A stretch of DNA of 64,000 bases from Hippasteria phrygiana (Eukaryota > Echinodermata > Asteroidea > Valvatida > Goniasteridae): contig JAZGUH010000153.1 in the NCBI GenBank assembly GCA_037893225.1, positions 1,240,001-1,304,000 of the forward strand, read 5' to 3'. How positions within the stretch are numbered: the stretch's first letter is position 1; every line of letters starts with the position of its first letter. Below are positions 3,333 through 54,033 of the stretch, one piece after another. The notes below the pieces were generated by a model that saw only the letters and a program-made list of their open reading frames with translations, made no database searches and was not told the DNA's origin. The translations under genes were made by a program, and so were the position numbers.

Positions 3333-3359
3333 GGAGAAGAAATAAAGACGTTAACTACG

Positions 3360-5333: not shown

Positions 5334-5374
5334 ATCGATCGTTGAACTTCGCTTCGAACTTCTTTACCCGGACA

Positions 5375-10288: not shown

Positions 10289-11838
10289 GACGTTTTGTTC
10301 GATTTTGCTTTAGTTGTCTGACTGCTAAGATTATGGGTTTCCACCGGGTCTGTGTTTATTTTGGCCGAAGATATATTGCTCTTATTTTGGGTTGATCTTC
10401 GACCCGATTCGCCTTTCCTTGTATTGGTATGTGTGGGTGTCCTTTGTTTTCCTTGCGTTTCTTTGGTCTGTGATGGGGGATTGTCTGAATGGATGATGTG
10501 ATTGACAAGGTCTTTAATAGCCGTTTGCCTTTCCTCTTTGTTCTTTAGTGTATCCAAAATTTGGATTGTGCCTGTCAGAAGTTCCGTTAGGCGTTGTTCA
10601 TTACATATGCATGTACATCGTGTGTGTTCGGTTTGCGTTCCCTCATCAGTTGTGTTTGTCTGGGTGCTCACATCTTTGACGGTTTTTTTGGGTTTTGCGG
10701 TTGGTGGTGGCATGTCCGTTGTGTCCTTTGTATTTGGTTGCACTTTGCCTGTCGTAGGTTGTGCCATGGAGGGTGGAACACTCCTCCATGGTTGTGCTGG
10801 CGGGGGGGTTAGCTGCTGTGTGGGATTTATTACGATATCCGTTTTTATAGCTTTAGCAGCATCTGCATATGATACATGATATGTAACCCTGATTCCTTGA
10901 ATTTTCTTTTCTTGTTTTATGGTGGTACAGCCTCCATAGGCTGATGAATGGTTCTCACCACATCTGCAGCATCTAGTGTTTTCTTTCTGATGGCATTGTT
11001 CATAGGTGTGGGGCCCACCGCATCGCACACAACGTGTGGCGCTTCTGCAGTTTTTGGCGGTGTGACCTAGTCTCTGGCAATTGAAGCAACGAATTACAGG
11101 TGGAATATATGGTTTTACAGGGAAGTTTTCATAGCCTATTTGTATTTTGGTAGGCAGATTTGGCGAGTTAAACGTTAGGCAGATAGAAAGGCTTTTTTCA
11201 AGTTTGCCTTCGCGTTTTCGCATGAGTCGTTTGGCATCAGTGACTCCATACTTCTTACATGCAGTTACTATTTCTTGGTCTGTTATGTCTGTTTCTATAC
11301 CGTATACAACACCTTTACTTTGAGTTTCGGATTTTGCATACTCCGTTGTGACAGTCCATTGCTCTAGTCGATTTATAGTTTTGAGTTTTTTAGCTTGTGC
11401 TGTGGTGTGGCATTTGACGGTTATTCCCCCTTGGTTGTTCTTGGAAACGTTTTTGATGAGGTCCTTTCCTACACTATTCAGGGCTTTGGCGATTCTAATT
11501 GGGTTTATTTTGGATAGTTGGACATCGGGGGAGTTAATTATTACTAGAGTAGGTTGAGTTTGGCAGGTGTTGTATGTCACAGTGTTTCGGCGTTTTGTTG
11601 GATGTGGAGAGTCGGATTCTGAATCGGTATAAACATCACTATAGCTGAGGCTGTGTTTTGTTCGTTTCCTGTTTTGAGTTTGCCAAGGGGACTGTGTTTT
11701 GTCTTGAGCTTGACTGTACAAGGCTTCAAATGTTGAACGCGGTTGTTCATTTTCATTAGGATTTTGGTCTGCATCCATTTGTTGCGATAACTGATCCCAT
11801 GAGAAATCATTATTAGATTCCGATTCAGCCTCGGCCAT
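10285..11838 (-). CDS. LINE ORF1: zinc-knuckle RNA-binding protein
   Basis: 517 residues. The middle part has an RRM/esterase-free ORF1 fold region, then three adjacent zinc knuckles at about 245-310 (CFNCQRLGHTAKNC, CVRCGGPHTYEQC, CCRCGENHSSAYGGC). Polar, Pro/Thr/Lys-rich tails lie on both sides. In I- and Jockey-type elements this protein coats the RNA and enters the ribonucleoprotein particle. The start at 11838 has a good context (GGCCATGG). The stop TGA at 10287-10285 overlaps the ORF2 ATG by four bases, suggesting termination-reinitiation of translation. Confidence 0.9.
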   Translation of the reverse strand: MAEAESESNNDFSWDQLSQQMDADQNPNENEQPRSTFEALYSQAQDKTQSPWQTQNRKRTKHSLSYSDVYTDSESDSPHPTKRRNTVTYNTCQTQPTLVIINSPDVQLSKINPIRIAKALNSVGKDLIKNVSKNNQGGITVKCHTTAQAKKLKTINRLEQWTVTTEYAKSETQSKGVVYGIETDITDQEIVTACKKYGVTDAKRLMRKREGKLEKSLSICLTFNSPNLPTKIQIGYENFPVKPYIPPVIRCFNCQRLGHTAKNCRSATRCVRCGGPHTYEQCHQKENTRCCRCGENHSSAYGGCTTIKQEKKIQGIRVTYHVSYADAAKAIKTDIVINPTQQLTPPPAQPWRSVPPSMAQPTTGKVQPNTKDTTDMPPPTAKPKKTVKDVSTQTNTTDEGTQTEHTRCTCICNEQRLTELLTGTIQILDTLKNKEERQTAIKDLVNHIIHSDNPPSQTKETQGKQRTPTHTNTRKGESGRRSTQNKSNISSAKINTDPVETHNLSSQTTKAKSNKTS

Positions 11839-12661: not shown

Positions 12662-13953
12662 ACCAAGACTACAAATAGGCCCGCAGATGAACCCAGTAAT
12701 AACTGCAAATAAAACTGTTATTATTGTGTTTATTATTTGATAGTGTTGAAATAACTCTTATGATTTAGCTTTCCATAAATTCCTGCCGTCAAATGTAACA
12801 CAAGGTCGTGGACTCAATATCGCCATCAGAATAGCTGTTTTACTTTGATTTGCTCATCATTGCACGCACAGCCGATTTTAGTCGAAATTTATTTTTGTAT
12901 AGGAAGGGGCTGGTGCATTATTTATTTTACAATTATAAATACTTATTTACTTATTTACTTATTTTCGTTTGGTTCTGTCATGGTAAATTTTGGCGTTTGG
13001 CGGGTGGGGTGTCACGGACTATGTTCGACTGTAGGCCTATCGTATATTTTTGGTGGCACAAACACACGTACAAAATACTTGTACATGCAGTATGTATCAT
13101 AACTACAGGATCATGCATGCAGCAGTCATTGCAATTGTAATCTGATCTGGCGCGCGCGCCCTGGTCAGCGCGCGCGAGCCCGGGTCAGCGCGCGCGCGCC
13201 CTGTAGGTCAGCGCGCGGTCGTGGGGTATTATTTGCAGTTACTGGGTTCATCTGCGTTCATCAGTTCGGAATTCAGTGTACAGCCGCAAGCCTGCTATGA
13301 TCGTGACGACACAGCCCCTTTAAATGGAGATGATGGAGGAGAATTCAGATTGCAAATCAAAAGTGAGTTTTTTATTGTAAGATCAGACTCTATGATCATG
13401 CTATACAGCACTACGTTATGCAATGAAGAGGGACGTAGGCCTACGTCTATTACAACGTTAGCATGGTGAACAGTTACTCCGAAGAATGTGAAGAAGTAAT
13501 ATAATGGGGCTGTCTCCTAGTCCTATGATGAGCCCCATAAGAAAGAAGTCAGATTTTCCCATTACTACCACAGCACGAATAAGAACGAAATGTTCAATGA
13601 TTTTCATGCAACTGTCGCGTGCGGTATTTCCGTCCCGTCGGCGGGAGAGGAAACTATAGAGGGCGCTCTCTCTTCTTCTGCGTCCCGTCCGTCCAGCACC
13701 TGATGATGTTACTGAATGTCGACAATAAATTTATATTCCCGGATTCGTTTGGTTGAAATATACGACCAGGCAGTATTATTTTCTTCTGATAAAATACAGG
13801 GACTCAACAAAAGTAAAGGAGACTTCTGTGTACAGTTGAACAATCATTTATTAAGACTAACTCCAAAACATTCAGCTCCTATACAGGAAATAGCTTTAAC
13901 AATAATTGGCCCTGCTAATTCTTATCTCAACCGCCCTCTATAATAACTGAGTT
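12662..13953. other. gene-free stretch with GC-rich short repeat
   Basis: No supportable gene. At 13149-13215 the words gcgcgcgcgccctggtcag and ggtcagcgcgcgcg recur three to four times, a short CG-alternating tandem that could adopt Z-DNA. The rest holds no recognised feature. Confidence 0.5.
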
Positions 13954-14570
13954 TACTCCGCCAGTTCCCAACTGGATACACGTCAGCTCCCAGCTGAGTT
14001 TACTCCGCCAGTTCCCAACTGGATACACGTCAGCTCCCAGCTGAATTTACTCCGCCAGTTCCCAACTGGATACACGTCAGCTCCCAGCTGAATTTACTCC
14101 GCCAGTTCCCAACTGGATACACGTCAGCTCCCAGCTGAATTTACTCCGCCAGTTCCAAACTGGATACACGTCAGCTCCTAGCTGAAATTACTCCGCCAGT
14201 TCCCAACTGGATACACGTCAGCTCCTAGCTGAATTTACTCCGCCAGTTCCCAACTGGATACACGTCAGCTCCTAGCTGAAATTACTCCGCCAGTTCCCAA
14301 CTGGATACACGTCAGCTCCTAGCTGAATTTACTCCGCCAGTTCCAAACTGGATACACGTCAGCTCCTAGCTGAAATTACTCCGCCAGTTCCAAACTGGAT
14401 ACACGTCAGCTCCTAGCTGAAATTACTCCGCCAGTTCTTAACTGGATACACGTCAGCTCCTAGCTGAAATTACTCCTCCAGTTCCTAACTGAATACACGT
14501 CAGCTCCTAGCTGAAATTACTCCGCCAGTTCCTAACTGGATACACGTCAGCTCCTAGCTGAAATTACTCC
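13954..14570. repeat. 47-bp tandem array, 13 copies, two hairpins per unit
   Basis: Thirteen full units plus the start of a fourteenth, in exact 47-base register (tactccgcc recurs from 13954 to 14565). Each unit contains CCAGTT-N3-AACTGG and CAGCT-N3-AGCTG (CCC or CCT loops), so each strand can form two small stem-loops per unit. The outermost copies carry the most variants. The loop of the second hairpin changes from ccc to cct part-way along the array, which indicates local homogenisation. Not a CRISPR: there are no unique spacers. Confidence 0.92.
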
Positions 14571-14732
14571 TCCTGTGATAGAGCAAGGCCTACGCTGACA
14601 TCGCAGTGATCTCAGCACTGGTAGCATAGAACCCTGTTTCCCTTATGAAAATGAAGTGAACTCCGCTGGCTACACGGAGTTCCGGAGTAAATCGAGTCAG
14701 TGAGTTCCCGCCGGCCGGACCGTTCCTAAAAA

Positions 14733-29436: not shown

Positions 29437-30106
29437 ACAAGGCTAGGACTAACAAGCGGTTGTGTAGCCTAGGCCGAATTCATATGACACTAATAATCTG
29501 TAAATGTATTTTTGGAGGCAATACAGCCAGATCTCCTAATCCAGTCTCCACTTACTCTACAGTGTGATATCCGTTTGATTTTGTTCAAAATAATAAAACT
29601 TTACTTACTGTACTGGAGGATTTTTGCATCGGGGTCATTTTTGGCCTCCAGTGTAGACCAAAGAGCTCTGCATGATATTAACATCCAGGCAAAGTCGAGT
29701 CATAGTTAATAGAACTCTCTGTTGGTTGCACTAAATTACTAACTTCACTCGATGCTGCAGAACATCATGTTTATAATTTTATCTACGTCACTCAAGTATA
29801 TTTATCAATTTCCACCCTGTCTCAAGCAAATTATAAACTTATAAATCAGCCATTTACATCATTGCGCAAAGTCAATAAATTAATGTAACCAACAGAGGGC
29901 ACTTTTGCACTATGCCTAAGTCTAAAAGGTTCAGTTTTTTTAAAAAGCACTGCAACACTTGCGCAAAATATAAAGGATTCTCCACTATACCATTGAGGAT
30001 TAGTGCAGCTGCAACCCCCCTATCCTCTATCACAGACAAGATTGTTGCTTCCTTAACTCTGAACTTCCGATAAAGTGAGCATTGCCATTTAAACTCTTGT
30101 CTGGTG

Positions 30107-30121
30107 TTCTCTTTCTTGTAG
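30107..30121 (+). other. splice acceptor of the giant NKRF-like exon
   Basis: A pyrimidine tract (gttctctttcttgtag) ends at AG 30120-30121. The NKRF-like reading frame is open from 30122 and its first in-frame stop upstream is the TAG of this acceptor (30119-30121). The exon therefore most likely starts in phase 0 at 30122, with coding sequence upstream. The upstream exon(s) were not identified. Confidence 0.7.
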
Positions 30122-33100
30122 GTACCCAGCAGAATTGATGACCAGGGTGCAGATAGTCTGCTGAAAGAGACCATGAGTAAATGCACAGGCAAACCACAAA
30201 GGGAACAAGTGTCCTCGCTGGAGCTGTGTCAACCAGCCAAGAGGAGTTTGGACGACGAGAATGTTGGTAATGACAAGGTCCAGAAAACAGAGAGACAACA
30301 GGATGCAAGGCAGCGTGCGATCATAGGATGCGATGTCCACCTTGAGCAGAAAGGTGGCACAAGCCAATCACTGGCAAAGAGCACACCTTCCCTATCAGGG
30401 GTGGGGTTCGTGTCTGGTTATAATATCATCTCTGATTTGGCATATAATCTGAGGAATCAGAAATTTAAGCTAGACAGACGTGCACTGAACAGGCTTCAAA
30501 ATGCCAGCAGCTTGCTGTGGCTGAAATTAGAGATCGAGTATATTGAGATCCCAACCCCGAATAGGCCATGTGGAAAAACAGGTTTGGGCAAGAGTCCCCT
30601 ACTCAACTCAACATGGGTGTGCAACCTGTACATACGTGATACACTCCTGGCAAGTGGGGAGGCCAACAACAGACCCGACTCCGAAGGGGCTGCAGCTGAA
30701 AGAGCCGTCCTCATTTTGGAGAGTTCAAGATTTACTGTTAAAAAAATGATGAAGCATAGTATACTTGGCAGGAGCTATGCAAAGCAAGTGGTGCCTTCAG
30801 ACGAGAAATTAAACAATCAGACTTTCCCAGTGGATCTACCAAATAAGTGTGGGGCACCGTCACCAACTCGGACTCTGGAGAATGTTGTGTTTATGGAGCA
30901 AGTGAATCCAGCCTTGCTGGAGTTAAGTGTACCAGCCACGAGGAGTTTGGATGACGAGAGCATTGGAAATAAGGCCCAGAAACCAGAGAGACAACAGAGT
31001 ACAAGGGAAGGTGGGCAAGAAAGTATGACAATACTGTCGGGCAAACTACAGAGTGAACCAGTGTCCCCGCTGGAGCTGGGTCAACCAGCCAAGAGGATTA
31101 TGGACGATGAGCGTGTTGGATGTGACAAGGTCCAGAAAACGGAGAGACAACAGGATGCAAGGGAGCGTGCAATCACAGAATGCGATGTCCACCTTGAGCA
31201 GAAAGGTGGCATAAGCCAATCACTGGCAAAGAGTACACCTTCCCCATCGGGGGCGGGGTCAGTGTCAGGATATAATATCATCTCTGATTTGGCATATAAT
31301 CTGAGGAATCAGAAAATCAAACAAGACAGACGTGCACTGAACAGGCTTCAAAGTGCTAGCTGTTGGCTGTGGCTGCAACCCGAGATGGAGTATATTGAGA
31401 TCCCACCCCCGAATAGGACATACGCCAAAACAGGTTGGGGCAAGAATCCCAGAGACGACTCAACATGGGTGTGCAACCTGTACATCCGTGACACACTCCT
31501 GGCAAGTGGGGAGGCCAATAACAGACCCAACTCCGAAGGGGCTGCCGCTGAAAGAGCTGTCCTCATTTTGGAGAGTTCAAGATTTACTGTTCAAAAAGTG
31601 ATGAAGCGTAGTAAACTTGGCAGGAGCTATGCAAAGGAAGTGGTGCCTTCAGACAAGAAATTAAACTTTCAGACTTTCCCAGTGGATTTACCAAACAAGT
31701 GTGGTGCACCGTCACCAACTCGGACTCTGGAGAATGTTGTGTTGATGGAGCAAGTGAATCCAGCCTCGCTGGAGTTGAGTGTACCAGCCAAGAGGAGTTT
31801 TGATGACGAGAGCGTTGGAAATAAGGCCCAGAAACCAGAGAGACAACAGAGTGCAAGGGAAAGTGGGCAAGAAAGTATGACAATCCTGTCGAGCAAACCA
31901 CAGAGTGAACCAGTGTCCTCGCTGGAGCTGGGTCAACCAGCCAAGGGGATTATGGACGATGAGAGTGTTGGAAGTGACAAGGTCCAGAAAACAGAGAGAC
32001 AACAGGATTCAAGGGAGCGTGCAATCGCAGGATGCGATGTCCACCTTGAGCAGAAAGGTGGCACAAGCCAATCACTGGCAAAGATCATACCTTCCCCATC
32101 GGGGGCGGGGTTCGTGTCCGGTTATAACATCATCTCTGATTTGGCATATAATCTGAGGAATCAGAAATTGAAGCTAGACAGACGTGCACTGAACAGGCTT
32201 CAAAATGCCAGCAGATCGCTGTGGCTAAAATTAGAGATCCAGTATATTGAGATCCCAACCCCGAATAGGCCATGTGGAAAAACAGGTTTGGGCAAGAGTC
32301 CCCTACTCAACTCAACATGGGTTTGCAACCTGTACATACGTGATATACTCCTGGCAAGTGGGGAGGCCAATAACAGACCCGACTCCGAAGGGGCTGCCGC
32401 TGAAAAAGCTGTCCTCATTTTGGAAAGTTCAAGATTTACTGTTCAGAAAGTGATGAAGCATAGTAAACTTGGCAGGAGCTATGCAAAGGAAGTGGTGCCT
32501 TCAGACGAGAAATTAAACTCTCAGACTTTCCCAGTGGATCTACCAAACAAGTGTGGGGCACCGTCACCAACTCGGACTCTGGAGAATGTTGTGTTTATGG
32601 AGCCAGTGAATCCAGCCTCGCTAGAGTTGAGTGTACTAGCCACGAGGAGTTTGGATGACGAGAGCATTGGAAATAAGGCCAAAAAACCAGAGAGACAACA
32701 GAGTACAAGGGAAGGTGGGCAAGAAAGTATGACAATACTGTCGGGCAAACCACAGTGTGAACCAGTGTCCTCGCTGGAGCTGGGTCAACCAGCCAAGGGG
32801 ATTATGGACGACGAGAGTGTTGGAAGTGACAAGGTCCAGAAAACAGAGAGACAACAGGATGCAAGGGAGCGTGCGATCGCAGGATGCGATGTCCACCTTG
32901 AGCAGAAAGGTGGCACAAGCCAATCACTGGCAAAGAGCACACCTTCCCCATCGGGGGCGGGGTTCGTGTCCGGTTATAATATCATCTCTGATTTGGCATA
33001 TAATCTGAGGAATCAGAAATTTAAGCTAGACAGACGTGCAATGAACAGGCTTAAAAATGCCAGCAGCTCGCTGTGGCTGAAATTAGAGATCGAGTATATT

Positions 33101-36100
33101 GAGATCCCAACCCCGAATAGGCCATGTGGAAAAACAGGTTTGGGCAAGAGTCCCCTACTCAACTCAACATGGGTTTGCAACCTGTACATACGTGATATAC
33201 TCCTGGCAAGTGGGGAGGCCAATAACAGACCCGACTCCGAAGGGGCTGCCGCTGAAAGAGCTGTCCTCATTTTGGAGAGTTCAAGATTTACTGTTCAGAA
33301 AGTGATGAAGCATAGTAAACTTGGCAGGAGCTATGCAAAGCAAGTGGTGCCTTCGGACGAGAAATTAAACTCTCAGACTTTCGCAGTGGATCTACCAAAC
33401 AAGTGTGGGGCACCGTCACCAACTCGGACTCTGAAAAATGTTGTGTTTATGGAGCCAGTGAATCCAGCCTCGCTAGAGTTGAGTGTACCAGCCACGAGGA
33501 GTTTGGATGACAAGAGCATTGGAAATAAGGCCCAGAAACCAGAGAGACAACAGAGTACAAGGGAAGGTGGGCAAGAAAGTATGACAATACTGTCGGGCAA
33601 ACTACAGAGTGAACCAGTGTCCTCGCTGGAGCTGGGTCAACCAGCCAAGAGGATTATGGACGATGAGCGTGTTGGATGTGACAAGGTCCAGAAAACGGAG
33701 AGACAACAGGATGCAAGGGAGCGTGCAATCGTAGGATGCGATGTCCACCTTGAGCAGAAAGGTGGCACAAGCCAATCACTGGCAAAGAGCACACCTTCCC
33801 CATCGGGGGCGGGGTTCGTGTCCGGTTATAATATCATCTCTGATTTGGCATATAATCTGAGGAATCAGAAATTTAAGCTAGACAGACGTGCAATGAACAG
33901 GCTTCAAAATGCCAGCAGCTCGCTGTGGCTGAAATTAGAGATCGAGTATATTGAGATCCCAACCCCGAATAGGCCATGTGGAAAAACAGGTTTGGGCAAG
34001 AGTCCCCTACTCAACTCAACATGGGTTTGCAACCTGTACATACGTGATATACTCCTGGCAAGTGGGGAGGCCAATAACAGACCCGACTCCGAAGGGGCTG
34101 CCGCTGAAAGAGCTGTCCTCATTTTGGAAAGTTCAAGATTTACTGTTCAGAAAGTGATGAAGCATAGTAAACTTGGCAGGAGCTATGCAAAGCAAGTGGT
34201 GCCTTCAGACGAGAAATTAAACTCTCAGACTTTCCCAGTGGATCTACCAAACAAGTGTGGGGCACCGTCACCAACTCGGACTCTGAAAAATGTTGTGTTT
34301 ATGGAGCCAGTGAATCCAGCCTCGCTAGAGTTGAGTGTACCAGCCACGAGGAGTTTGGATGACGAGAGCATTGGAAATAAGGCCCAGAAACCAGAGAGAC
34401 AACAGAGTACAAGGGAAGGTGGGCAAGAAAGTATGACAATACTGTCGGGCAAACCACAGTGTGAACCAGTGTCCTCGCTGGAGGTGGGTCAACCAGCCAA
34501 GGGGATTATGGATGACGAGAGTGTTGGAAGTGACAAGGTCCAGAAAACGGAGAGACAACAGGATGCAAGGGAGCGTGCGATCGCAGGATGCGATGTCCAC
34601 CTTGAGCAGAAAGGTGGCACAAGCCAATCACTGGCAAAGAGCACACCTTCCCCATCGGGGGCGGGGTTCGTGTCCGGTTATAATATCATCTCTGATTTGG
34701 CATATAATCTGAGGAATCAGAAATTGAAGCTAGACAGACGTGCAATGAACAGGCTTCAAAATGCCAGCAGCTCGCTGTGGCTGAAATTAGAGATCGAGTA
34801 TATTGAGATCCCAACCCCGAATAGGCCATGTGGAAAAACAGGTTTGGGCAAGAGTCCCCTACTCAACTCAACATGGGTTTGCAACCTGTACATACGTGAT
34901 ATACTCCTGGCAAGTGGGGAGGCCAATAACAGACCCGACTCCGAAGGGGCTGCCGCTGAAAAAGCTGTCCTCATTTTGGAAAGTTCAAGATTTACTGTTC
35001 AGAAAGTGATGAAGCATAGTAAACTTGGCAGGAGCTATGCAAAGGAAGTGGTGCCTTCAGACGAGAAATTAAACTCTCAGACTTTCCCAGTGGATCTACC
35101 AAACAAGTGTGGGGCACCGTCACCAACTCGGACTCTGGAGAATGTTGTGTTTATGGAGCCAGTGAATCCAGCCTCGCTAGAGTTGAGTGTACTAGCCACG
35201 AGGAGTTTGGATGACGAGAGCATTGGAAATAAGGCCAAAAAACCAGAGAGACAACAGAGTACAAGGGAAGGTGGGCAAGAAAGTATGACAATACTGTCGG
35301 GCAAACCACAGTGTGAACCAGTGTCCTCGCTGGAGCTGGGTCAACCAGCCAAGGGGATTATGGACGACGAGAGTGTTGGAAGTGACAAGGTCCAGAAAAC
35401 AGAGAGACAACAGGATGCAAGGGAGCGTGCGATCGCAGGATGCGATGTCCACCTTGAGCAGAAAGGTGGCACAAGCCAATCACTGGCAAAGAGCACACCT
35501 TCCCCATCGGGGGCGGGGTTCGTGTCCGGTTATAATATCATCTCTGATTTGGCATATAATCTGAGGAATCAGAAATTTAAGCTAGACAGACGTGCAATGA
35601 ACAGGCTTAAAAATGCCAGCAGCTCGCTGTGGCTGAAATTAGAGATCGAGTATATTGAGATCCCAACCCCGAATAGGCCATGTGGAAAAACAGGTTTGGG
35701 CAAGAGTCCCCTACTCAACTCAACATGGGTTTGCAACCTGTACATACGTGATATACTCCTGGCAAGTGGGGAGGCCAATAACAGACCCGACTCCGAAGGG
35801 GCTGCCGCTGAAAGAGCTGTCCTCATTTTGGAGAGTTCAAGATTTACTGTTCAGAAAGTGATGAAGCATAGTAAACTTGGCAGGAGCTATGCAAAGCAAG
35901 TGGTGCCTTCGGACGAGAAATTAAACTCTCAGACTTTCGCAGTGGATCTACCAAACAAGTGTGGGGCACCGTCACCAACTCGGACTCTGAAAAATGTTGT
36001 GTTTATGGAGCCAGTGAATCCAGCCTCGCTAGAGTTGAGTGTACCAGCCACGAGGAGTTTGGATGACAAGAGCATTGGAAATAAGGCCCAGAAACCAGAG

Positions 36101-39100
36101 AGACAACAGAGTACAAGGGAAGGTGGGCAAGAAAGTATGACAATACTGTCGGGCAAACTACAGAGTGAACCAGTGTCCTCGCTGGAGCTGGGTCAACCAG
36201 CCAAGAGGATTATGGACGATGAGCGTGTTGGATGTGACAAGGTCCAGAAAACGGAGAGACAACAGGATGCAAGGGAGCGTGCAATCGTAGGATGCGATGT
36301 CCACCTTGAGCAGAAAGGTGGCACAAGCCAATCACTGGCAAAGAGCACACCTTCCCCATCGGGGGCGGGGTTCGTGTCCGGTTATAATATCATCTCTGAT
36401 TTGGCATATAATCTGAGGAATCAGAAATTTAAGCTAGACAGACGTGCAATGAACAGGCTTCAAAATGCCAGCAGCTCGCTGTGGCTGAAATTAGAGATCG
36501 AGTATATTGAGATCCCAACCCCGAATAGGCCATGTGGAAAAACAGGTTTGGGCAAGAGTCCCCTACTCAACTCAACATGGGTTTGCAACCTGTACATACG
36601 TGATATACTCCTGGCAAGTGGGGAGGCCAATAACAGACCCGACTCCGAAGGGGCTGCCGCTGAAAGAGCTGTCCTCATTTTGGAAAGTTCAAGATTTACT
36701 GTTCAGAAAGTGATGAAGCATAGTAAACTTGGCAGGAGCTATGCAAAGCAAGTGGTGCCTTCAGACGAGAAATTAAACTCTCAGACTTTCCCAGTGGATC
36801 TACCAAACAAGTGTGGGGCACCGTCACCAACTCGGACTCTGAAAAATGTTGTGTTTATGGAGCCAGTGAATCCAGCCTCGCTAGAGTTGAGTGTACCAGC
36901 CACGAGGAGTTTGGATGACGAGAGCATTGGAAATAAGGCCCAGAAACCAGAGAGACAACAGAGTACAAGGGAAGGTGGGCAAGAAAGTATGACAATACTG
37001 TCGGGCAAACCACAGTGTGAACCAGTGTCCTCGCTGGAGGTGGGTCAACCAGCCAAGGGGATTATGGATGACGAGAGTGTTGGAAGTGACAAGGTCCAGA
37101 AAACGGAGAGACAACAGGATGCAAGGGAGCGTGCGATCGCAGGATGCGATGTCCACCTTGAGCAGAAAGGTGGCACAAGCCAATCACTGGCAAAGAGCAC
37201 ACCTTCCCCATCGGGGGCGGGGTTCGTGTCCGGTTATAATATCATCTCTGATTTGGCATATAATCTGAGGAATCAGAAATTGAAGCTAGACAGACGTGCA
37301 ATGAACAGGCTTCAAAATGCCAGCAGCTCGCTGTGGCTGAAATTAGAGATCGAGTATATTGAGATCCCAACCCCGAATAGGCCATGTGGAAAAACAGGTT
37401 TGGGCAAGAGTCCCCTACTCAACTCAACATGGGTTTGCAACCTGTACATACGTGATATACTCCTGGCAAGTGGGGAGGCCAATAACAGACCCGACTCCGA
37501 AGGGGCTGCCGCTGAAAGAGCTGTCCTCATTTTGGAAAGTTCAAGATTTACTGTTCAGAAAGTGATGAAGCATAGTAAACTTGGCAGGAGCTATGCAAAG
37601 CAAGTGGTGCCTTCGGACGAGAAATTAAACTCTCAGACTTTCCCAGTGGATCTACCAAACAAGTGTGGGGCACCGTCACCAACTCGGACTCTGAAAAATG
37701 TTGTGTTTATGGAGCCAGTGAATCCAGCCTCGCTAGAGTTGAGTGTACCAGCCACGAGGAGTTTGGATGACGAGAGCATTGGAAATAAGGCCCAGAAACC
37801 AGAGAGACAACAGAGTACAAGGGAAGGTGGGCAAGAAAGTATGACAATACTGTCGGGCAAACTACAGAGTGAACCAGTGTCCTCGCTGGAGCTGGGTCAA
37901 CCAGCCAAGAGGATTATGGACGATGAGCGTGTTGGATGTGACAAGGTCCAGAAAACGGAGAGACAACAGGATGCAAGGGAGCGTGCGATCGTAGGATGCG
38001 ATGTCCACCTTGAGCAGAAAGGTGGCACAAGCCAATCACTGGCAAAGAGCACACCTTCCCCATCGGGGGCGGGGTTCGTGTCCGGTTATAATATCATCTC
38101 TGATTTGGCATATAATCTGAGGAATCAGAAATTTAAGCTAGACAGACGTGCAATGAACAGGCTTCAAAATGCCAGCAGCTCGCTGTGGCTGAAATTAGAG
38201 ATCGAGTATATTGAGATCCCAACCCCGAATAGGCCATGTGGAAAAACAGGTTTGGGCAAGAGTCCCCTACTCAACTCAACATGGGTTTGCAACCTGTACA
38301 TACGTGATATACTCCTGGCAAGTGGGGAGGCCAATAACAGACCCGACTCCGAAGGGGCTGCCGCTGAAAGAGCTGTCCTCATTTTGGAAAGTTCAAGATT
38401 TACTGTTCAGAAAGTGATGAAGCATAGTAAACTTGGCAGGAGCTATGCAAAGCAAGTGGTGCCTTCAGACGAGAAATTAAACTCTCAGACTTTCCCAGTG
38501 GATCTACCAAACAAGTGTGGGGCACCGTCACCAACTCGGACTCTGAAAAATGTTGTGTTTATGGAGCCAGTGAATCCAGCCTCGCTAGAGTTGAGTGTAC
38601 CAGCCACGAGGAGTTTGGATGACGAGAGCATTGGAAATAAGGCCCAGAAACCAGAGAGACAACAGAGTACAAGGGAAGGTGGGCAAGAAAGTATGACAAT
38701 ACTGTCGGGCAAACCACAGTGTGAACCAGTGTCCTCGCTGGAGCTGGGTCAACCAGCCAAGAGGATTATGGATGACGAGAGTGTTGGAAGTGACAAGGTC
38801 CAGAAAACGGAGAGACAACAGGATGCAAGGGAGCGTGCGATCGCAGGATGCGATGTCCACCTTGAGCAGAAAGGTGGCACAAGCCAATCACTGGCAAAGA
38901 GCACACCTTCCCCATCGGGGGCGGGGTTCGTGTCCGGTTATAATATCATCTCTGATTTGGCATATAATCTGAGGAATCAGAAATTTAAGCTAGACAGACG
39001 TGCAATGAACAGGCTTCAAAATGCCAGCAGCTCGCTGTGGCTGAAATTAGAGATCGAGTATATTGAGATCCCAACCCCGAATAGGCCATGTGGAAAAACA

Positions 39101-42100
39101 GGTTTGGGCAAGAGTCCCCTACTCAACTCAACATGGGTTTGCAACCTGTACATACGTGATATACTCCTGGCAAGTGGGGAGGCCAATAACAGACCCGACT
39201 CCGAAGGGGCTGCCGCTGAAAGAGCTGTCCTCATTTTGGAAAGTTCAAGATTTACTGTTCAGAAAGTGATGAAGCATAGTAAACTTGGCAGGAGCTATGC
39301 AAAGCAAGTGGTGCCTTCAGACGAGAAATTAAACTCTCAGACTTTCCCAGTGGATCTACCAAACAAGTGTGGGGCACCGTCAGCAACTCGGACTCTGGAG
39401 AATGTTGTGTTGATGGAGCAAGTGAATCCAGCCTCGCTGGAGTTGAGTGTACCAGCCAAGAGGAGTTTGGATGACGAGAGCGTTGGAAATAAGGCCCAGA
39501 AACCAGAGAGACAACAGAGTACAAGGGAAGGTGGGCAAGAAAGTATGACAATACTGTCGGGCAAACCACAGTGTGAACCAGTGTCCTCGCTGGAGCTGGG
39601 TCAACCAGCCATTGGGATTATGGACGACGAGAGTGTTGGAAGTGACAAGGTCCAGAAAACAGAGAGACAACAGGATGCAAGGGAGCGTGCGATCGCACGA
39701 TGCGATGTCCACCTTGAGCAGAAAGGTGGCACAAGCCAATCACTGGCAAAGAGCACACCTTCCCCATTGGGGGCGGGGTTCGTGTCCGGTTATAATATCA
39801 TCTCTGATTTGGCATATAATCTGAGGAATCAGAAATTTAAGCTAGACAGACGTGCAATGAACAGGCTTCAAAATGCCAGCAGCTCGCTGTGGCTGAAATT
39901 AGAGATAGAGTATATTGAGATCCCAACCCCGAATAGGCCATGTGGAAAAACAGGTTTGGGCAAGAGTCCCCTACTCAACTCAACATGGGTTTGCAACCTG
40001 TACATACGTGATATACTCCTGGCAAGTGGGGAGGCCAATAACAGACCCGACTCCGAAGGGGCTGCCGCTGAAAGAGCTGTCCTCATTTTGGAAAGTTCAA
40101 GATTTACTGTTCAGAAAGTGATGAAGCATAGTAAACTTGGCAGGAGCTATGCAAAGCAAGTGGTGCCTTCAGACGAGAAATTAAACTCTCAGACTTTCCC
40201 AGTGGATCTACCAAACAAGTGTGGGGCACCGTCACCAACTCGGACTCTGAAAAATGTTGTGTTTATGGAGCCAGTGAATCCAGCCTCGCTAGAGTTGAGT
40301 GTACCAGCCACGAGGAGTTTGGATGACGAGAGCATTGGAAATAAGGCCCAGAAACCAGAGAGACAACAGAGTACAAGGGAAGGTGGGCAAGAAAGTATGA
40401 CAATACTGTCGGGCAAACCACAGTGTGAACCAGTGTCCTCGCTGGAGCTGGGTCAACCAGCCAAGGGGATTATGGACGACGAGAGTGTTGGAAGTGACAA
40501 GGTCCAGAAAACGGAGAGACAACAGGATGCAAGGGAGCGTGCAATCGCAGGATGCGATGTCCACCTTGAGCAGAAAGGTGGCACAAGCCAATCACTGGCA
40601 AAGAGCACACCTTCCCCATCGGGGGCGGGGTTCGTGTCCGGTTATAATATCATCTCTGATTTGGCATATAATCTGAGGAATCAGAAATTTAAGCTAGACA
40701 GACGTGCAATGAACAGGCTTCAAAATGCCAGCAGCTCGCTGTGGCTGAAATTAGAGATCGAGTATATTGAGATCCCAACCCCGAATAGGCCATGTGGAAA
40801 AACAGGTTTGGGCAAGAGTCCCCTACTCAACTCAACATGGGTTTGCAACCTGTACATACGTGATATACTCCTGGCAAGTGGGGAGGCCAATAACAGACCC
40901 GACTCCGAAGGGGCTGCCGCTGAAAGAGCTGTCCTCATTTTGGAGAGTTCAAGATTTACTGTTCGGAAAGTGATGAAGCGTAGTAAACTTGGCAGGAGCT
41001 ATGCAAAGGAAGTGGTGCCTTCGGACGAGAAATTAAACTTTCAGACTTTCCCAGTGGATTTACCAAACAAGTGTGGTGCACCATCACCAACTCTGACTCT
41101 GGAGAATGTTGTGTTTATGGAGCCAGTGAATCCAGCCTCGCTGGAGTTGAGTGTACCAGCCAAGAGGAGTTTGGATGACGAGAGCATTGGAAATAAGGCC
41201 CAGAAACCAGAGAGACAACAGAGTACAAGGGAAGGTGGGCAAGAAAGTATGACAATCCAGTTGGGCAAACAACAGAGTGAACCATCATCCTTGCGGTCTT
41301 CTCAGACTTTCCTTGAGAATCCTCAGGCCGATAAGGCAAAGGAAATAATGCCTTCAGACAAAGTAAAATCTCAGATTTTGCTGGGGAATCTACAAAATGC
41401 GAAAATAGAAGCTCTCCCTGCACGCACGAAAATAGAATCTGAGACTTTGCCAGTAAATCCAGAGACCAAGGTGAAGACAGACTTGAACATAAAATCTCTG
41501 ACCTTGTCGGGGAATATGCAGATGGAGGCAAAGGAGGATGTGGCCTCGGAAAAGACATCAAACTCACAGCCTTCCCCGATGAAGCTGCAGAACAAGTGCG
41601 ACGTACCTCTGCCATCATGGTTTGTGAAGGAGTTTGTGTTGATAGAGCCCCGGCACCCGGTTTCTGCTGTCACAGTTTTGATTAGCTCAGCAGCAAGAAA
41701 CCATGCCTCGATCGAGTTCAAAACTAGCGATGATATCCAAACGGTAAACGGCAAATCCGGCTTTGTGTGCACGACTGTAATCGGAGGTGTGGCAATCGCC
41801 ATCAGTTTACATATGAATGAGGAGGAGGCAAAAAAGGTGTCGGCCGAAAATGCCCTGGCATGTTTACGTAAGACCTGTTGCGTCCTCAGGAAGAATCTCG
41901 ATAATGTCAAGGCCATTAAGCGAAATGAGCTTATCGTCGGCGGGCAACAACTGCAAGTGTTAAAGCAAGCCAGCGCCATCAAGGACTGTAACATTGGCCA
42001 CAAGATGCTGAAGATGATGGGATGGAAGGGCGGGGCCCTGGGTGAGGGGGGCATCGTGGAGCCCATCCAGGCCAGTAAGAAGATCTCCCGAGAGGGGTTT

Positions 42101-42235
42101 GGGTACACCGTGGCCCTCCCCGAGAACAACACCAACAAGATCGACATGAAAGCTGTCTACAAGATCCTAGAGGACTTTGTGTGTTCTGGGAAACGGATGA
42201 CCTCGTCTTCTCTGAACTTTCCCCCGACGAGGTAG
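30122..42235 (+). CDS. giant NKRF-like protein with 13 dsRBD-like repeats
   Basis: One exon of 4020 codons from the ATG at 30173, plus 17 in-frame codons back to the acceptor. Residues ~1-3690 are 13 tandem 284-residue units. Each has a domain (GYNIISDLAYNL, LEIEYIEIPTPN, WVCNLYIRDILLASGEA, EGAAAERAVLILES) with the pattern of a double-stranded-RNA-binding fold, then a long polar linker. The unique C terminus has another dsRBD-like domain (~3830-3905; IEFKTSDDIQTVNGKSGFVC, KKVSAENALACL), a G-patch (~3937-3985; NIGHKMLKMMGWKGGALGEG) and the start of an R3H region. This order is that of NF-kappa-B-repressing factor (NKRF), a ~690-residue nuclear/nucleolar partner of XRN2 and a G-patch helicase in vertebrates. 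The vertebrate gene is also encoded mostly in one exon. The stop at 42233-42235 is premature: the R3H core continues one frame over. Function in this species is inferred; the repeat expansion is new to me. Confidence 0.82.
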   Translation, partial: VPSRIDDQGADSLLKETMSKCTGKPQREQVSSLELCQPAKRSLDDENVGNDKVQKTERQQDARQRAIIGCDVHLEQKGGTSQSLAKSTPSLSGVGFVSGYNIISDLAYNLRNQKFKLDRRALNRLQNASSLLWLKLEIEYIEIPTPNRPCGKTGLGKSPLLNSTWVCNLYIRDTLLASGEANNRPDSEGAAAERAVLILESSRFTVKKMMKHSILGRSYAKQVVPSDEKLNNQTFPVDLPNKCGAPSPTRTLENVVFMEQVNPALLELSVPATRSLDDESIGNKAQKPERQQSTREGGQESMTILSGKLQSEPVSPLELGQPAKRIMDDERVGCDKVQKTERQQDARERAITECDVHLEQKGGISQSLAKSTPSPSGAGSVSGYNIISDLAYNLRNQKIKQDRRALNRLQSASCWLWLQPEMEYIEIPPPNRTYAKTGWGKNPRDDSTWVCNLYIRDTLLASGEANNRPNSEGAAAERAVLILESSRFTVQKVMKRSKLGRSYAKEVVPSDKKLNFQTFPVDLPNKCGAPSPTRTLENVVLMEQVNPASLELSVPAKRSFDDESVGNKAQKPERQQSARESGQESMTILSSKPQSEPVSSLELGQPAKGIMDDESVGSDKVQKTERQQDSRERAIAGCDVHLEQKGGTSQSLAKIIPSPSGAGFVSGYNIISDLAYNLRNQKLKLDRRALNRLQNASRSLWLKLEIQYIEIPTPNRPCGKTGLGKSPLLNSTWVCNLYIRDILLASGEANNRPDSEGAAAEKAVLILESSRFTVQKVMKHSKLGRSYAKEVVPSDEKLNSQTFPVDLPNKCGAPSPTRTLENVVFMEPVNPASLELSVLATRSLDDESIGNKAKKPERQQSTREGGQESMTILSGKPQCEPVSSLELGQPAKGIMDDESVGSDKVQKTERQQDARERAIAGCDVHLEQKGGTSQSLAKSTPSPSGAGFVSGYNIISDLAYNLRNQKFKLDRRAMNRLKNASSSLWLKLEIEYIEIPTPNRPCGKTGLGKSPLLNSTWVCNLYIRDILLASGEANNRPDSEGAAAERAVLILESSRFTVQKVMKHSKLGRSYAKQVVPSDEKLNSQTFAVDLPNKCGAPSPTRTLKNVVFMEPVNPASLELSVPATRSLDDKSIGNKAQKPERQQSTREGGQESMTILSGKLQSEPVSSLELGQPAKRIMDDERVGCDKVQKTERQQDARERAIVGCDVHLEQKGGTSQSLAKSTPSPSGAGFVSGYNIISDLAYNLRNQKFKLDRRAMNRLQNASSSLWLKLEIEYIEIPTPNRPCGKTGLGKSPLLNSTWVCNLYIRDILLASGEANNRPDSEGAAAERAVLILESSRFTVQKVMKHSKLGRSYAKQVVPSDEKLNSQTFPVDLPNKCGAPSPTRTLKNVVFMEPVNPASLELSVPATRSLDDESIGNKAQKPERQQSTREGGQESMTILSGKPQCEPVSSLEVGQPAKGIMDDESVGSDKVQKTERQQDARERAIAGCDVHLEQKGGTSQSLAKSTPSPSGAGFVSGYNIISDLAYNLRNQKLKLDRRAMNRLQNASSSLWLKLEIEYIEIPTPNRPCGKTGLGKSPLLNSTWVCNLYIRDILLASGEANNRPDSEGAAAEKAVLILESSRFTVQKVMKHSKLGRSYAKEVVPSDEKLNSQTFPVDLPNKCGAPSPTRTLENVVFMEPVNPASLELSVLATRSLDDESIGNKAKKPERQQSTREGGQESMTILSGKPQCEPVSSLELGQPAKGIMDDESVGSDKVQKTERQQDARERAIAGCDVHLEQKGGTSQSLAKSTPSPSGAGFVSGYNIISDLAYNLRNQKFKLDRRAMNRLKNASSSLWLKLEIEYIEIPTPNRPCGKTGLGKSPLLNSTWVCNLYIRDILLASGEANNRPDSEGAAAERAVLILESSRFTVQKVMKHSKLGRSYAKQVVPSDEKLNSQTFAVDLPNKCGAPSPTRTLKNVVFMEPVNPASLELSVPATRSLDDKSIGNKAQKPERQQSTREGGQESMTILSGKLQSEPVSSLELGQPAKRIMDDERVGCDKVQKTERQQDARERAIVGCDVHLEQKGGTSQSLAKSTPSPSGAGFVSGYNIISDLAYNLRNQKFKLDRRAMNRLQNASSSLWLKLEIEYIEIPTPNRPCGKTGLGKSPLLNSTWVCNLYIRDILLASGEANNRPDSEGAAAERAVLILESSRFTVQKVMKHSKLGRSYAKQVVPSDEKLNSQTFPVDLPNKCGAPSPTRTLKNVVFMEPVNPASLELSVPATRSLDDESIGNKAQKPERQQSTREGGQESMTILSGKPQCEPVSSLEVGQPAKGIMDDESVGSDKVQKTERQQDARERAIAGCDVHLEQKGGTSQSLAKSTPSPSGAGFVSGYNIISDLAYNLRNQKLKLDRRAMNRLQNASSSLWLKLEIEYIEIPTPNRPCGKTGLGKSPLLNSTWVCNLYIRDILLASGEANNRPDSEGAAAERAVLILESSRFTVQKVMKHSKLGRSYAKQVVPSDEKLNSQTFPVDLPNKCGAPSPTRTLKNVVFMEPVNPASLELSVPATRSLDDESIGNKAQKPERQQSTREGGQESMTILSGKLQSEPVSSLELGQPAKRIMDDERVGCDKVQKTERQQDARERAIVGCDVHLEQKGGTSQSLAKSTPSPSGAGFVSGYNIISDLAYNLRNQKFKLDRRAMNRLQNASSSLWLKLEIEYIEIPTPNRPCGKTGLGKSPLLNSTWVCNLYIRDILLASGEANNRPDSEGAAAERAVLILESSRFTVQKVMKHSKLGRSYAKQVVPSDEKLNSQTFPVDLPNKCGAPSPTRTLKNVVFMEPVNPASLELSVPATRSLDDESIGNKAQKPERQQSTREGGQESMTILSGKPQCEPVSSLELGQPAKRIMDDESVGSDKVQKTERQQDARERAIAGCDVHLEQKGGTSQSLAKSTPSPSGAGFVSGYNIISDLAYNLRNQKFKLDRRAMNRLQNASSSLWLKLEIEYIEIPTPNRPCGKTGLGKSPLLNSTWVCNLYIRDILLASGEANNRPDSEGAAAERAVLILESSRFTVQKVMKHSKLGRSYAKQVVPSDEKLNSQTFPVDLPNKCGAPSATRTLENVVLMEQVNPASLELSVPAKRSLDDESVGNKAQKPERQQSTREGGQESMTILSGKPQCEPVSSLELGQPAIGIMDDESVGSDKVQKTERQQDARERAIARCDVHLEQKGGTSQSLAKSTPSPLGAGFVSGYNIISDLAYNLRNQKFKLDRRAMNRLQNASSSLWLKLEIEYIEIPTPNRPCGKTGLGKSPLLNSTWVCNLYIRDILLASGEANNRPDSEGAAAERAVLILESSRFTVQKVMKHSKLGRSYAKQVVPSDEKLNSQTFPVDLPNKCGAPSPTRTLKNVVFMEPVNPASLELSVPATRSLDDESIGNKAQKPERQQSTREGGQESMTILSGKPQCEPVSSLELGQPAKGIMDDESVGSDKVQKTERQQDARERAIAGCDVHLEQKGGTSQSLAKSTPSPSGAGFVSGYNIISDLAYNLRNQKFKLDRRAMNRLQNASSSLWLKLEIEYIEIPTPNRPCGKTGLGKSPLLNSTWVCNLYIRDILLASGEANNRPDSEGAAAERAVLILESSRFTVRKVMKRSKLGRSYAKEVVPSDEKLNFQTFPVDLPNKCGAPSPTLTLENVVFMEPVNPASLELSVPAKRSLDDESIGNKAQKPERQQSTREGGQESMTIQLGKQQSEPSSLRSSQTFLENPQADKAKEIMPSDKVKSQILLGNLQNAKIEALPARTKIESETLPVNPETKVKTDLNIKSLTLSGNMQMEAKEDVASEKTSNSQPSPMKLQNKCDVPLPSWFVKEFVLIEPRHPVSAVTVLISSAARNHASIEFKTSDDIQTVNGKSGFVCTTVIGGVAIAISLHMNEEEAKKVSAENALACLRKTCCVLRKNLDNVKAIKRNELIVGGQQLQVLKQASAIKDCNIGHKMLKMMGWKGGALGEGGIVEPIQASKKISREGFGYTVALPENNTNKIDMKAVYKILEDFVCSGKRMTSSSLNFPPTR
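30173..41250 (+). repeat. 852-bp coding tandem array, 13 units
   Basis: The codon block for GYNIISDLAYN starts at 30416 and recurs at 31268, 32120, 32972, 33824, 34676, 35528, 36380, 37232, 38084, 38936, 39788 and 40640: twelve intervals of exactly 852 bp without an indel. Units 1, 2 and 13 are the most diverged; inner units are near identical. Variants AEKAVL, RLKNASS/FAVDLP/DDKSIG and DERVGCD recur every third unit between ~32.3 and 37.5 kb. Within each linker an older half-unit duplication is visible: SLELSVPATRSLDDESIGNK versus SLELGQPAKRIMDDESVGSD. Confidence 0.97.
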
Positions 42236-42357
42236 GACAAATTCACACAGCTTGTAAACACTTCAATCTGAGGAGTGATTCACACTGGGACGGAAGTAAC
42301 TGTCATCTTGTAGTTGGATGGAAACGGGACATGAATAGGCTCGTGCGGGATCTGTAG
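42236..42357 (+). pseudogene. out-of-frame R3H tail of the NKRF-like gene
   Basis: From about 42193, the frame one base back from the main frame reads TDDLVFSELSPDEVGQIH, then a segment with NLRSDSHWDG and HLVVGWKRD, to a TAG at 42355-42357. This is the conserved R3H pattern that follows the G-patch in NKRF. The main frame leaves this sequence between about 42185 and 42195 (gggaaacgg) and stops at 42235. A single-base deletion, a consensus error or a polymorphism would explain it. The full-length product would be ~40 residues longer. Confidence 0.75.
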
Positions 42358-42409
42358 AAAGTGGTGGAACCTGTGGAGTGTATGAACTAGTTACTCAGGG
42401 ACAGTTTAA

Positions 42410-42881: not shown

Positions 42882-42929
<48 letters not shown>

Positions 42930-43051: not shown

Positions 43052-43088
<37 letters not shown>
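42882..43088. repeat. G47 and C33 runs facing each other
   Basis: A run of ~47 G at 42882-42928 and ~33 C at 43056-43088, 127 bases apart. On either strand the two runs are complementary, and each can form quadruplex or i-motif structures. Run length in an assembly is unreliable. Confidence 0.8.
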
Positions 43089-52185: not shown

Positions 52186-52260
52186 AAAAAAAAAAAATTT
52201 AAAAAATTACCCAATGAAAACCTTACTGAAAAAATGACTAATGCTGAACCAAAAACTCAC

Positions 52261-53579
52261 CACTGGTCTGCGTATGTTCCTTAACATTTCCTCACTGCAC
52301 GCCAACACTCGTGCACGTCCACGGCCAATGGTTGGTCTGGCCGTCGGTTCTGGTGACTGCTGCCTGATGCCGCCTGTACTGTCTAGCAACTGGCGTGCAT
52401 TTTCTTCTGAGAAACCGAGATGCGCCGATGGTGTCTTCGGAATGGCACCTGGCTGTCTTCGCTGAATCTCGATTTGTTGGGTGGTGGCTGCTGCGTCTTC
52501 AAGTCTACTGGCCTCTGTCGTATCCAGTGGTTTGCTGGGATCTGAGGGTGTCCATCCCGCGTATTGCCTGTCCCCGCCACCAGGAGAATGACGCTTCTTG
52601 TGTTTCTCCTGAGACTCGTGATCCAGTTCGGGGAACTGGCTTCGAGAATGCATGTTGAGTACATCTCTATGTCCATTACTTGTTTTGACAAGCCCCGCAT
52701 CTTTCAACGCTATGCTGTACAGACGATCCCCAGAGCCATCTCTCCTTGTAGAGACGGATTGAGCACCGGTTCCCCGGGAACTAAGGTAGTTGTTTGCTAG
52801 GGTCCTGCCTTTGATCTGAGCGCTAAGGTCACGGCTGGGCACTTCCTGCGTGGGTAATGTCTTTTTCTGCCCAGGGGAGAGACGAAGGAGAATTTGGGCG
52901 GTTGCCGAGAGTCTGCTGGAATTGGGAAGAGGATCCGTGACAGCTCCTGCCTTCTCCTTGTCAGACTCTCTCTCATCATCTTCTTCATCGCCATCACTAT
53001 CATCGTCATCTTCATCGTCATCATCATCACTATCATCATCATTCTCATCTTTTTCAATTTCGTTGTCAAATTTCATCAAAGCTCTGTGAGTGCCTGTGTC
53101 CTTCTCAGCCGACTGTACCCTGTTTAGCATCGAGGATGCCGCAGCTGGCTTCTGATCTGGCACTGTGGTAGGATCATCCCAAAACCCCTCCTTGTTCTCC
53201 TCCTTCTCCTCCTTCCCCGCTAAAGTGATACCTCCGGGTGCTTCTCTATCCACTTCCACTACTGATCTTTTATCTGAGATCGGTGAGAAGTATACAGTGG
53301 AACCTTCCTTTTTGGCTCCATCTCTTGTCGTGCTGCTTTGCTCTCCTTCCTCCTTTGGTGGGGCAAAGCCATTTGAAAGTCTTCCGGGAGATGGGCGTGG
53401 TGTCTTATGGCGGACGGTTATCTTTGGCATGCAGAATCTGGGCCCATTGATATGTGGAGGCTGGGATGTGGTCGTGGCAATGCGAGTAGGTTCACTGGGG
53501 TGTGTCTTTGTGGGATGGTGGGATGGTGGGTGCTGAGATTTGGAGTGTGTCTTGTCTGGTTCTTCACGCGGTGGTGCTT
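52261..53579 (-). CDS. EXD1: EXD1-like, large disordered exon
   Basis: 1319 bases, acceptor ttgaacag at 53580-53582, donor gtgagt at 52260-52255. The first two bases complete a split codon from exon 55757-55637. It encodes a low-complexity region with an Asp/Glu tract (TCATCA-type repeat at about 52980-53055) and near its 3' end TIGRGRARVL, a GRGRAR motif of the kind methylated and read by Tudor domains (inference). It has no stop except beyond the donor. Confidence 0.8.
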
Positions 53580-54033
53580 CTGTTCAAGAAATAAAAGAAA
53601 AATAACCAGTGGGTGTCAACTTTGATTATGGCCTTTACCATGTACACACTAAATAACTAAACCAGAGGCTACATTTTGGTTTACATCTCTTTTTGTGTAT
53701 TTTCTCTTCACAAATAAAGTTTCATTACATTCCACAGCAAACGAGAATGCTATGGGATTTACATGTCAGTTTCGGGAACACATAATGAAAGGTCACCTAA
53801 AAATTACACCAAGTGTTCTTGTCTTACAAATCTAAACATTTATCATTACAGATTTGAAATATATGTGACTCTGGATACTTAAAGTGTCCTTTGGACACTT
53901 TTTGACTAAGTTTGGATGTAAAAACAATTATGAAAAACAATTATGGATGCATTCGACTGTAAACTGCAGTGATATGGTTAAATTCGAGGCAAAGACCTTT
54001 GGTGATATTTCTCACAGAATCTGCATTCATAAT

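Follow-up and report, generated by a model that had tools for sequence, protein, structure and literature searches.

The NKRF family is known for rRNA processing, and the consensus of region 3 in double-stranded RNA-binding domains (dsRBDs) is KKxAK. A giant open reading frame (ORF) that appears to derive from this family was characterized in a 64,000-nucleotide stretch of the Hippasteria phrygiana genome (contig JAZGUH010000153.1, positions 1,240,001 to 1,304,000 of the forward strand), hereafter referred to as the window; coordinates are window positions unless stated otherwise. In the part of PMC5716075 available to us, dsRNA binding is said to depend critically on two lysines of region 3, and domains without them are termed type B, which bind protein; the same part counts three dsRBDs each in TRBP, PACT and Loqs, and five or more in Staufen. 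The available portion of PMC11459146 describes the human NKRF G-patch as bracing the helicase DHX15. The protein collection yielded one relative of the giant protein (8000 candidates), the NKRF-like isoform X2 of Acanthaster planci (P0002, 526 aa), in which a single module is followed by dsRBD, G-patch and R3H domains. No giant-size relative was found among 1823 scored candidates and no mid-size relative among 7980, both weak negatives because scoring was restricted to word-sharing, length-fitting candidates. Pattern scans of prokaryotic contigs gave 21 matches and those of viral contigs 180, with no relative among them.

The reading frame of the giant ORF is free of stops from 30122 onward, and across the array it contains none, as compared with 86-217 in each of the other five frames. 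A self-match of the protein gave a period of 284 residues. Thirteen units of 852 bp occupy 30230-41305 (residues 20-3711), and unit pairs were 90.8-100% identical in an ungapped comparison (divergence 0-9.2%). The array is absent from the Tandem Repeats Finder output because the longest period there was 500. Each of the 13 units is 45-48% identical to the single module of P0002, and the tail is 56% identical to P0002 over 225 residues. The features are as follows.

30173-42235, + strand: giant ORF, 4020 codons, 440 kDa, isoelectric point 9.0, likely start ATG 30173
30230-31081, + strand: unit 1, dsRBD-like core 30419-30739
31082-31933, + strand: unit 2, core 31271-31591; the most divergent unit, with the core closest to the paralogue (see below)
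31934-32785, + strand: unit 3, core 32123-32443
32786-33637, + strand: unit 4, core 32975-33295; 100% identical to unit 7
33638-34489, + strand: unit 5, core 33827-34147; 100% identical to unit 8
34490-35341, + strand: unit 6, core 34679-34999
35342-36193, + strand: unit 7, core 35531-35851
36194-37045, + strand: unit 8, core 36383-36703
37046-37897, + strand: unit 9, core 37235-37555
37898-38749, + strand: unit 10, core 38087-38407
38750-39601, + strand: unit 11, core 38939-39259
39602-40453, + strand: unit 12, core 39791-40111
40454-41305, + strand: unit 13, core 40643-40963; final ~16 codons diverged into the linker
41306-41653, + strand: linker from the array to the tail dsRBD
41654-41878, + strand: tail dsRBD-like domain, region 3 EEEAK
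41972-42112, + strand: G-patch, similar to that of human NKRF (6sh6)
42125-42190, + strand: R3H homologue, in-frame start
42196-42404, + strand: remaining R3H and conserved C-terminus in two other frames (tblastn of A. planci P0002)

By eye, a motif of ~25 residues, similar to the units' SDEKLNSQTFPVDLPN stretch, seems to recur in several diverged forms within the linker at 41306-41653. Homopolymer runs of 47 G (42882-42928) and 33 C (43056-43088) lie less than 1 kb downstream of the ORF.

An intact single-module paralogue was found on the same strand and contig, 51 kb upstream of the giant, in a genome of 944 Mb and 1285 contigs.

G000:C153:1211777-1218689, + strand: intact paralogue, exon limits predicted
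L009 1777-1952, + strand: first XTBD exon
L009 5642-5705, + strand: possible alternative second exon, which would complete the XTBD and then stop
C153:1217108-1218689 (L009 7108-8689), + strand: long exon, running from the XTBD end into the NKRF-like part

The paralogue carries the XTBD exon followed by the module, dsRBD, G-patch and R3H, and is 62% identical to P0002 over residues 1-525 (E 7e-203). When the genome was searched with P0002, all 16 matches (18 candidates scored) fell within the giant and paralogue loci. A DNA search for further unit copies listed the paralogue alone, and that search did not recover the window's own array. Pfam found dsrm in two stretches of the paralogue long exon, the module being the better of the two, along with G-patch and R3H, and both hand-joined paralogue forms, built on predicted splicing, matched XTBD (E 4.6e-21 and 2.7e-20). 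The exon-by-exon search of the genome gave one XTBD match, the paralogue's first exon. One gene with two candidate second exons might in this way yield, from a shared first exon, an XTBD-only protein, which we take to resemble CDKN2AIPNL/PAXT-1, together with the NKRF-like protein. A. planci isoform X2 starts at a methionine internal to the XTBD of the paralogue (L009 7108-7140), and its annotated start is possibly too short, as happened with human NKRF, whose short form lacks most of the XTBD according to the part of PMC7054742 available.

The giant and the paralogue share 62% amino-acid identity over 219 tail residues. Three features lie at the 5' end of the giant exon.

30079-30121, + strand: conserved polypyrimidine tract with a putative acceptor (AG 30120-30121), 38 of 43 nt identical to the paralogue
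30122-30152, + strand: what remains of the second XTBD exon (YPAELMTRVQ in frame 3), not in the array frame
30138-30164, + strand: 8-codon upstream ORF, which starts at the methionine of the XTBD remnant and has T at -3

The agreement in splice context exceeds an expected identity of 62% (P=1.2e-4), and 34 of 49 fourfold sites of the tail agree. The XTBD remnant is identical to the paralogue at 28 of 31 nt, and tblastn matched 10 of 11 residues. An out-of-frame deletion in the giant exon took away the last part of the XTBD; the second-exon piece is truncated and lies in a frame other than that of the array, so that the XTBD is not joined in frame with it. The paralogue's first XTBD exon had no match within the 64-kb window (best E 3.1). 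Between the acceptor and ATG 30173 there is one other ATG, that of the 8-codon upstream ORF. At the 3' end, the R3H domain is not in the array's frame beyond 42190. Homology to A. planci runs on in frame 1 (42196-42354, 54% identity) and then frame 3 (42354-42404, 82%; both by tblastn), and the giant frame consequently ends early, at 42235. The exon has one frame break in the XTBD piece, two in the R3H homologue and none across the 12 kb between them. As an in-frame XTBD and an in-frame R3H were both looked for and neither was found, we regard the giant as NKRF-derived and do not class it as NKRF.

Pfam analysis of the giant protein identified a G-patch (PF01585, E 1.8e-6) and 142 bits of dsrm signal summed over the protein, with no stretch passing alone. 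An NCBIfam scan gave no match above cut-offs. At E<=1, the human NKRF G-patch 6sh6 (E 3.3e-6) was the sole sequence match in the PDB, and in the alignment the giant's G-patch retains the pattern of the human domain, including the conserved Trp and Gly. A PDB profile search with the module returned five sequences, all DARPins (E 0.41 to 2), which were dismissed as chance. Much of the initial annotation of this stretch, which was made from the sequence alone, is corroborated by these data. ORF, periodicity and unit alignment agree with its 4020-codon frame of 13 modules of 284 residues, and one exon-like open stretch supports its placing of the 13-fold module in a single exon; its NKRF kinship is upheld by P0002, the paralogue and 6sh6, and its G-patch by Pfam and 6sh6. 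Its R3H remnant is real, as judged by out-of-frame homology to A. planci, and the end point that it gave, 42357, falls inside that homology. Its 'dsRBD-like' label for the modules is fair on the summed score and weak unit by unit, with 14.6 bits in each of the two units scored against a cut-off of 23.

Region 3 was positioned with two weak alignments, a gapless BLAST match between module and dsRBD (E 0.008) and a match between the A. planci dsRBD and PKR (1x48; E 0.49). So placed, it reads RPDSE in 12 of the 13 units and RPNSE in unit 2, and KPNSK in the module of both A. planci and the paralogue. In the tail dsRBD it reads EEEAK in the giant, KREAR in A. planci and KRDAR in the paralogue. On these alignments the basic residues of region 3 appear largely lost from all 13 units and from the tail dsRBD, and retained by the paralogue and A. 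planci. In our judgement the giant is a G-patch adaptor of NKRF origin whose dsRBDs are degenerate and type-B-like, rather than a strong dsRNA reader.

The variation among units was then used to assess selection on the frame. The 114 distinct inter-unit variants included no stops, where the spectrum of mutations among them predicts 4.9 (P=0.006), with variants taken as independent and columns 796-852 dropped in all 13 units. With those columns included, comparison to the consensus gave 137 variants. One of these counts formally as a stop, but it falls where the end of unit 13 has diverged, in a multiply changed codon that does not read as a stop in the real sequence. No indels were found among the 13 units in the ungapped comparison. 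With neither stops nor indels, the frame looks selected. Between giant and paralogue, the ratio of nonsynonymous to synonymous substitution (dN/dS, both lineages together) was 0.38 for the tail and 0.35-0.52 for the core, and within the tail 0.36 for the G-patch and 0.23 for the dsRBD. Residue change appears to be faster in the giant lineage: 42 residues were unique to the giant and 15 to the paralogue over 219 tail sites (chi2 12.8), and 14-17 as compared with 5-7 over 109 core sites in the four of 13 units tested (chi2 3.5-4.3). We read this as a frame maintained while many residues were relaxed or changed.

The history of the array can be partly reconstructed. The core of unit 2 is 66% identical in amino acids to the paralogue, and those of the other twelve units 61-63%. 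Synonymous sites differ by 13.7% between units 1 and 2 and by 36-40% between unit cores and the paralogue, which places the amplification after the gene duplication. The array also contains one long exact repeat.

32241-34961 and 34797-37517, + strand: the two copies of the exact repeat (2721 bp), offset by three units

Two pairs of units, 4 with 7 and 5 with 8, are identical and lie inside this repeat, which reflects either a very recent three-unit duplication or an assembly expansion; the unit count could therefore be three too high.

We consider it very probable that the giant represents the last exon of an NKRF-like paralogue that arose by tandem duplication, evolves fast and has had its module multiplied. 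In the proposed sequence of events, the terminal exon of an NKRF-like gene was tandem-duplicated and its single module was then amplified to 13 copies inside that exon, most likely through unequal crossing-over or replication slippage, while the copy would have lost its XTBD joint at the 5' end, its R3H frame at the 3' end and most region-3 basic residues. Because the frame stayed open between the two end breaks, translation of the protein is probable, and leaky scanning over the 8-codon upstream ORF could perhaps allow initiation at ATG 30173. Its C-terminal G-patch would recruit or activate the helicase DHX15, and its array of 13 degenerate, type-B-like dsRBDs would form a long multivalent protein-binding arm, with no tight dsRNA clamp, acting apart from XRN2. 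This scaffold mechanism is put forward tentatively, and the explanation as a whole, covering origin, translation and mechanism, seems to us evenly balanced. In its fullest form, a separate, XRN2-free 440-kDa helicase adaptor with 13 protein-binding dsRBDs, a DHX15-activating G-patch and a copy number variable between individuals, it is unlikely. The XRN2 link of the initial annotation is weakened because the XTBD piece has been cut short and does not share the array's frame.

Several observations weigh against parts of this explanation. As regards the module fold, two units scored singly against Pfam dsrm reached 14.6 bits each (cut-off 23), AlphaFold2 models from shallow alignments had predicted confidence (pLDDT) of 34.7 and 33.9, and hhalign of modules against tail dsRBDs, with input lacking the A. 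planci tail, gave a probability of 1% (E 0.056). The type-B behaviour of the modules is inferred, and with a net charge per unit of +2 to +7 (mildly basic) some weak RNA binding by the units is possible. As regards constraint, 37 of 114 inter-unit variants were synonymous as compared with 30.2 expected (P=0.09), a slight excess in which selection on amino acids among the units can hardly be seen. Synonymous divergence (dS) from the paralogue was uneven (G-patch 0.25, tail dsRBD 1.13), and nucleotide identity was 82-90% in the G-patch, 63-67% in five of the other six tail blocks and 80% in the sixth. The high DNA identity of the G-patch may reflect constraint or gene conversion, and the latter may explain the similar acceptor as well. 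Finally, the giant exon joined to the sole known XTBD exon stops after 72 codons, so this splice would not give the array protein.

The giant could be a decaying duplicate, near-pseudogene or untranslated, with a nearly neutral coding minisatellite kept open by recent ancestry. The lost XTBD joint, the two breaks in R3H, the faster residue change, the weak constraint on amino acids among units (pN/pS 0.59 overall, from 78 pairs) and the presence of an intact paralogue would all fit. Recent ancestry accords poorly, however, with a 13.7% synonymous difference between units 1 and 2 in an array of 13 units without stop or indel, although the computed indel expectation depends on assumed ratios, and the dN/dS of 0.36 in the G-patch and 0.23 in the tail dsRBD, for both lineages together, also argues against decay, which we hold to be improbable. 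Far less probable still is that the exon serves as an untranslated alternative last exon, spliced to the genome's one XTBD exon so that it encodes a short and truncated XTBD protein and the array forms a 3' untranslated region of 12 kb. The single XTBD exon, the similarity of the acceptor and first 31 nt to those of the paralogue, and the stop of the joined frame after 72 codons are as this would predict, but 4020 open codons are unexpected in such a region, and an alpha-L-fucosidase exon on the opposite strand (L011 7145-7582, - strand) sits between the two NKRF-like copies.

The initial annotation had proposed an avidity-based reader of long or structured RNA, and in a version of this idea 13 weak RNA-binding modules would jointly hold long structured RNA and pass it to DHX15. 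The modules are dsrm-like (142 bits summed) and their net positive charge, together with the possibility that many weak sites add up to avidity, would suit such a role. The idea is weakened because every one of the 13 units carries RPDSE or RPNSE and the tail dsRBD carries EEEAK at positions where A. planci and the paralogue have kept the basic residues, and we regard it as improbable. The number of modules could also be an artefact, the assembler having stuttered over a true array with fewer units. The exact 2721-bp repeat three units apart, with its identical units 4 and 7 and units 5 and 8, is what stutter would leave. Yet the 13 units comprise 11 different sequences, which diverge by as much as 9.2%, and 10 units remain even after one copy of the exact block is removed; expansion of the whole array from one or two units, one of the outcomes that the initial annotation had named as a refutation, is accordingly unlikely, and assembly expansion in general very improbable. 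We retain the NKRF-derived adaptor, at the graded strengths given above, as the best explanation.

Elsewhere in the window, a DIRS-like element, as we name it (2304-5363, - strand), shows reverse transcriptase and RNase H-like matches next to a tyrosine recombinase (Pfam Phage_integrase). A retroelement of the type lacking long terminal repeats (6554-11838, - strand) has long open ORFs, one with a zinc knuckle and one with endonuclease, reverse transcriptase and RNase H. A tandem array of period 47 bp lies at 13803-14713, with 14 overlapping register positions among those listed, and a 458-codon open stretch at 52207-53583 (- strand) is partly acidic, with no Pfam match above cut-off.

If translated, the giant would bear 13 dsRBD-like modules per chain, far above the three of TRBP, PACT and Loqs and the five or more of Staufen. 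It would constitute a natural experiment in which an adaptor sheds its nuclease- and RNA-binding parts, retains its helicase hook and multiplies the remainder, and the neighbouring intact paralogue offers a ready comparison for DHX15 dependence, RNA binding and copy-number variation. The paralogue locus in turn suggests a first exon common to XTBD-only and NKRF-like proteins. In carrying tandem coding repeats in a single exon the giant resembles filaggrin (FLG), to which we know of no sequence relation; profilaggrin is degraded to monomers. Human FLG has 10-12 complete repeats in one exon, altered by duplication and loss, as stated in the available part of PMC5225520. Amplified coding repeats in one exon are thus already known, whereas no description of an NKRF module multiplied 13-fold was found in the literature searched, a partial collection. 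Like the type B dsRBDs described in the available part of PMC5716075 (the third dsRBD of TRBP, PACT and Loqs, and dsRBD5 of Staufen), the giant's modules, on the weak alignments used here, largely lack the basic residues of region 3; their fold is predicted at low confidence. With P0002 of A. planci the giant shares module, dsRBD and G-patch in the same order, and with human NKRF a G-patch that matches 6sh6; it differs from both in having 13 modules instead of one, an R3H out of frame, no in-frame XTBD and mostly lost region-3 basic residues. The giant exon starts at the same point as that of the intact paralogue and in a similar splice context, and it is the paralogue that keeps one module, the in-frame XTBD joint and the R3H domain.

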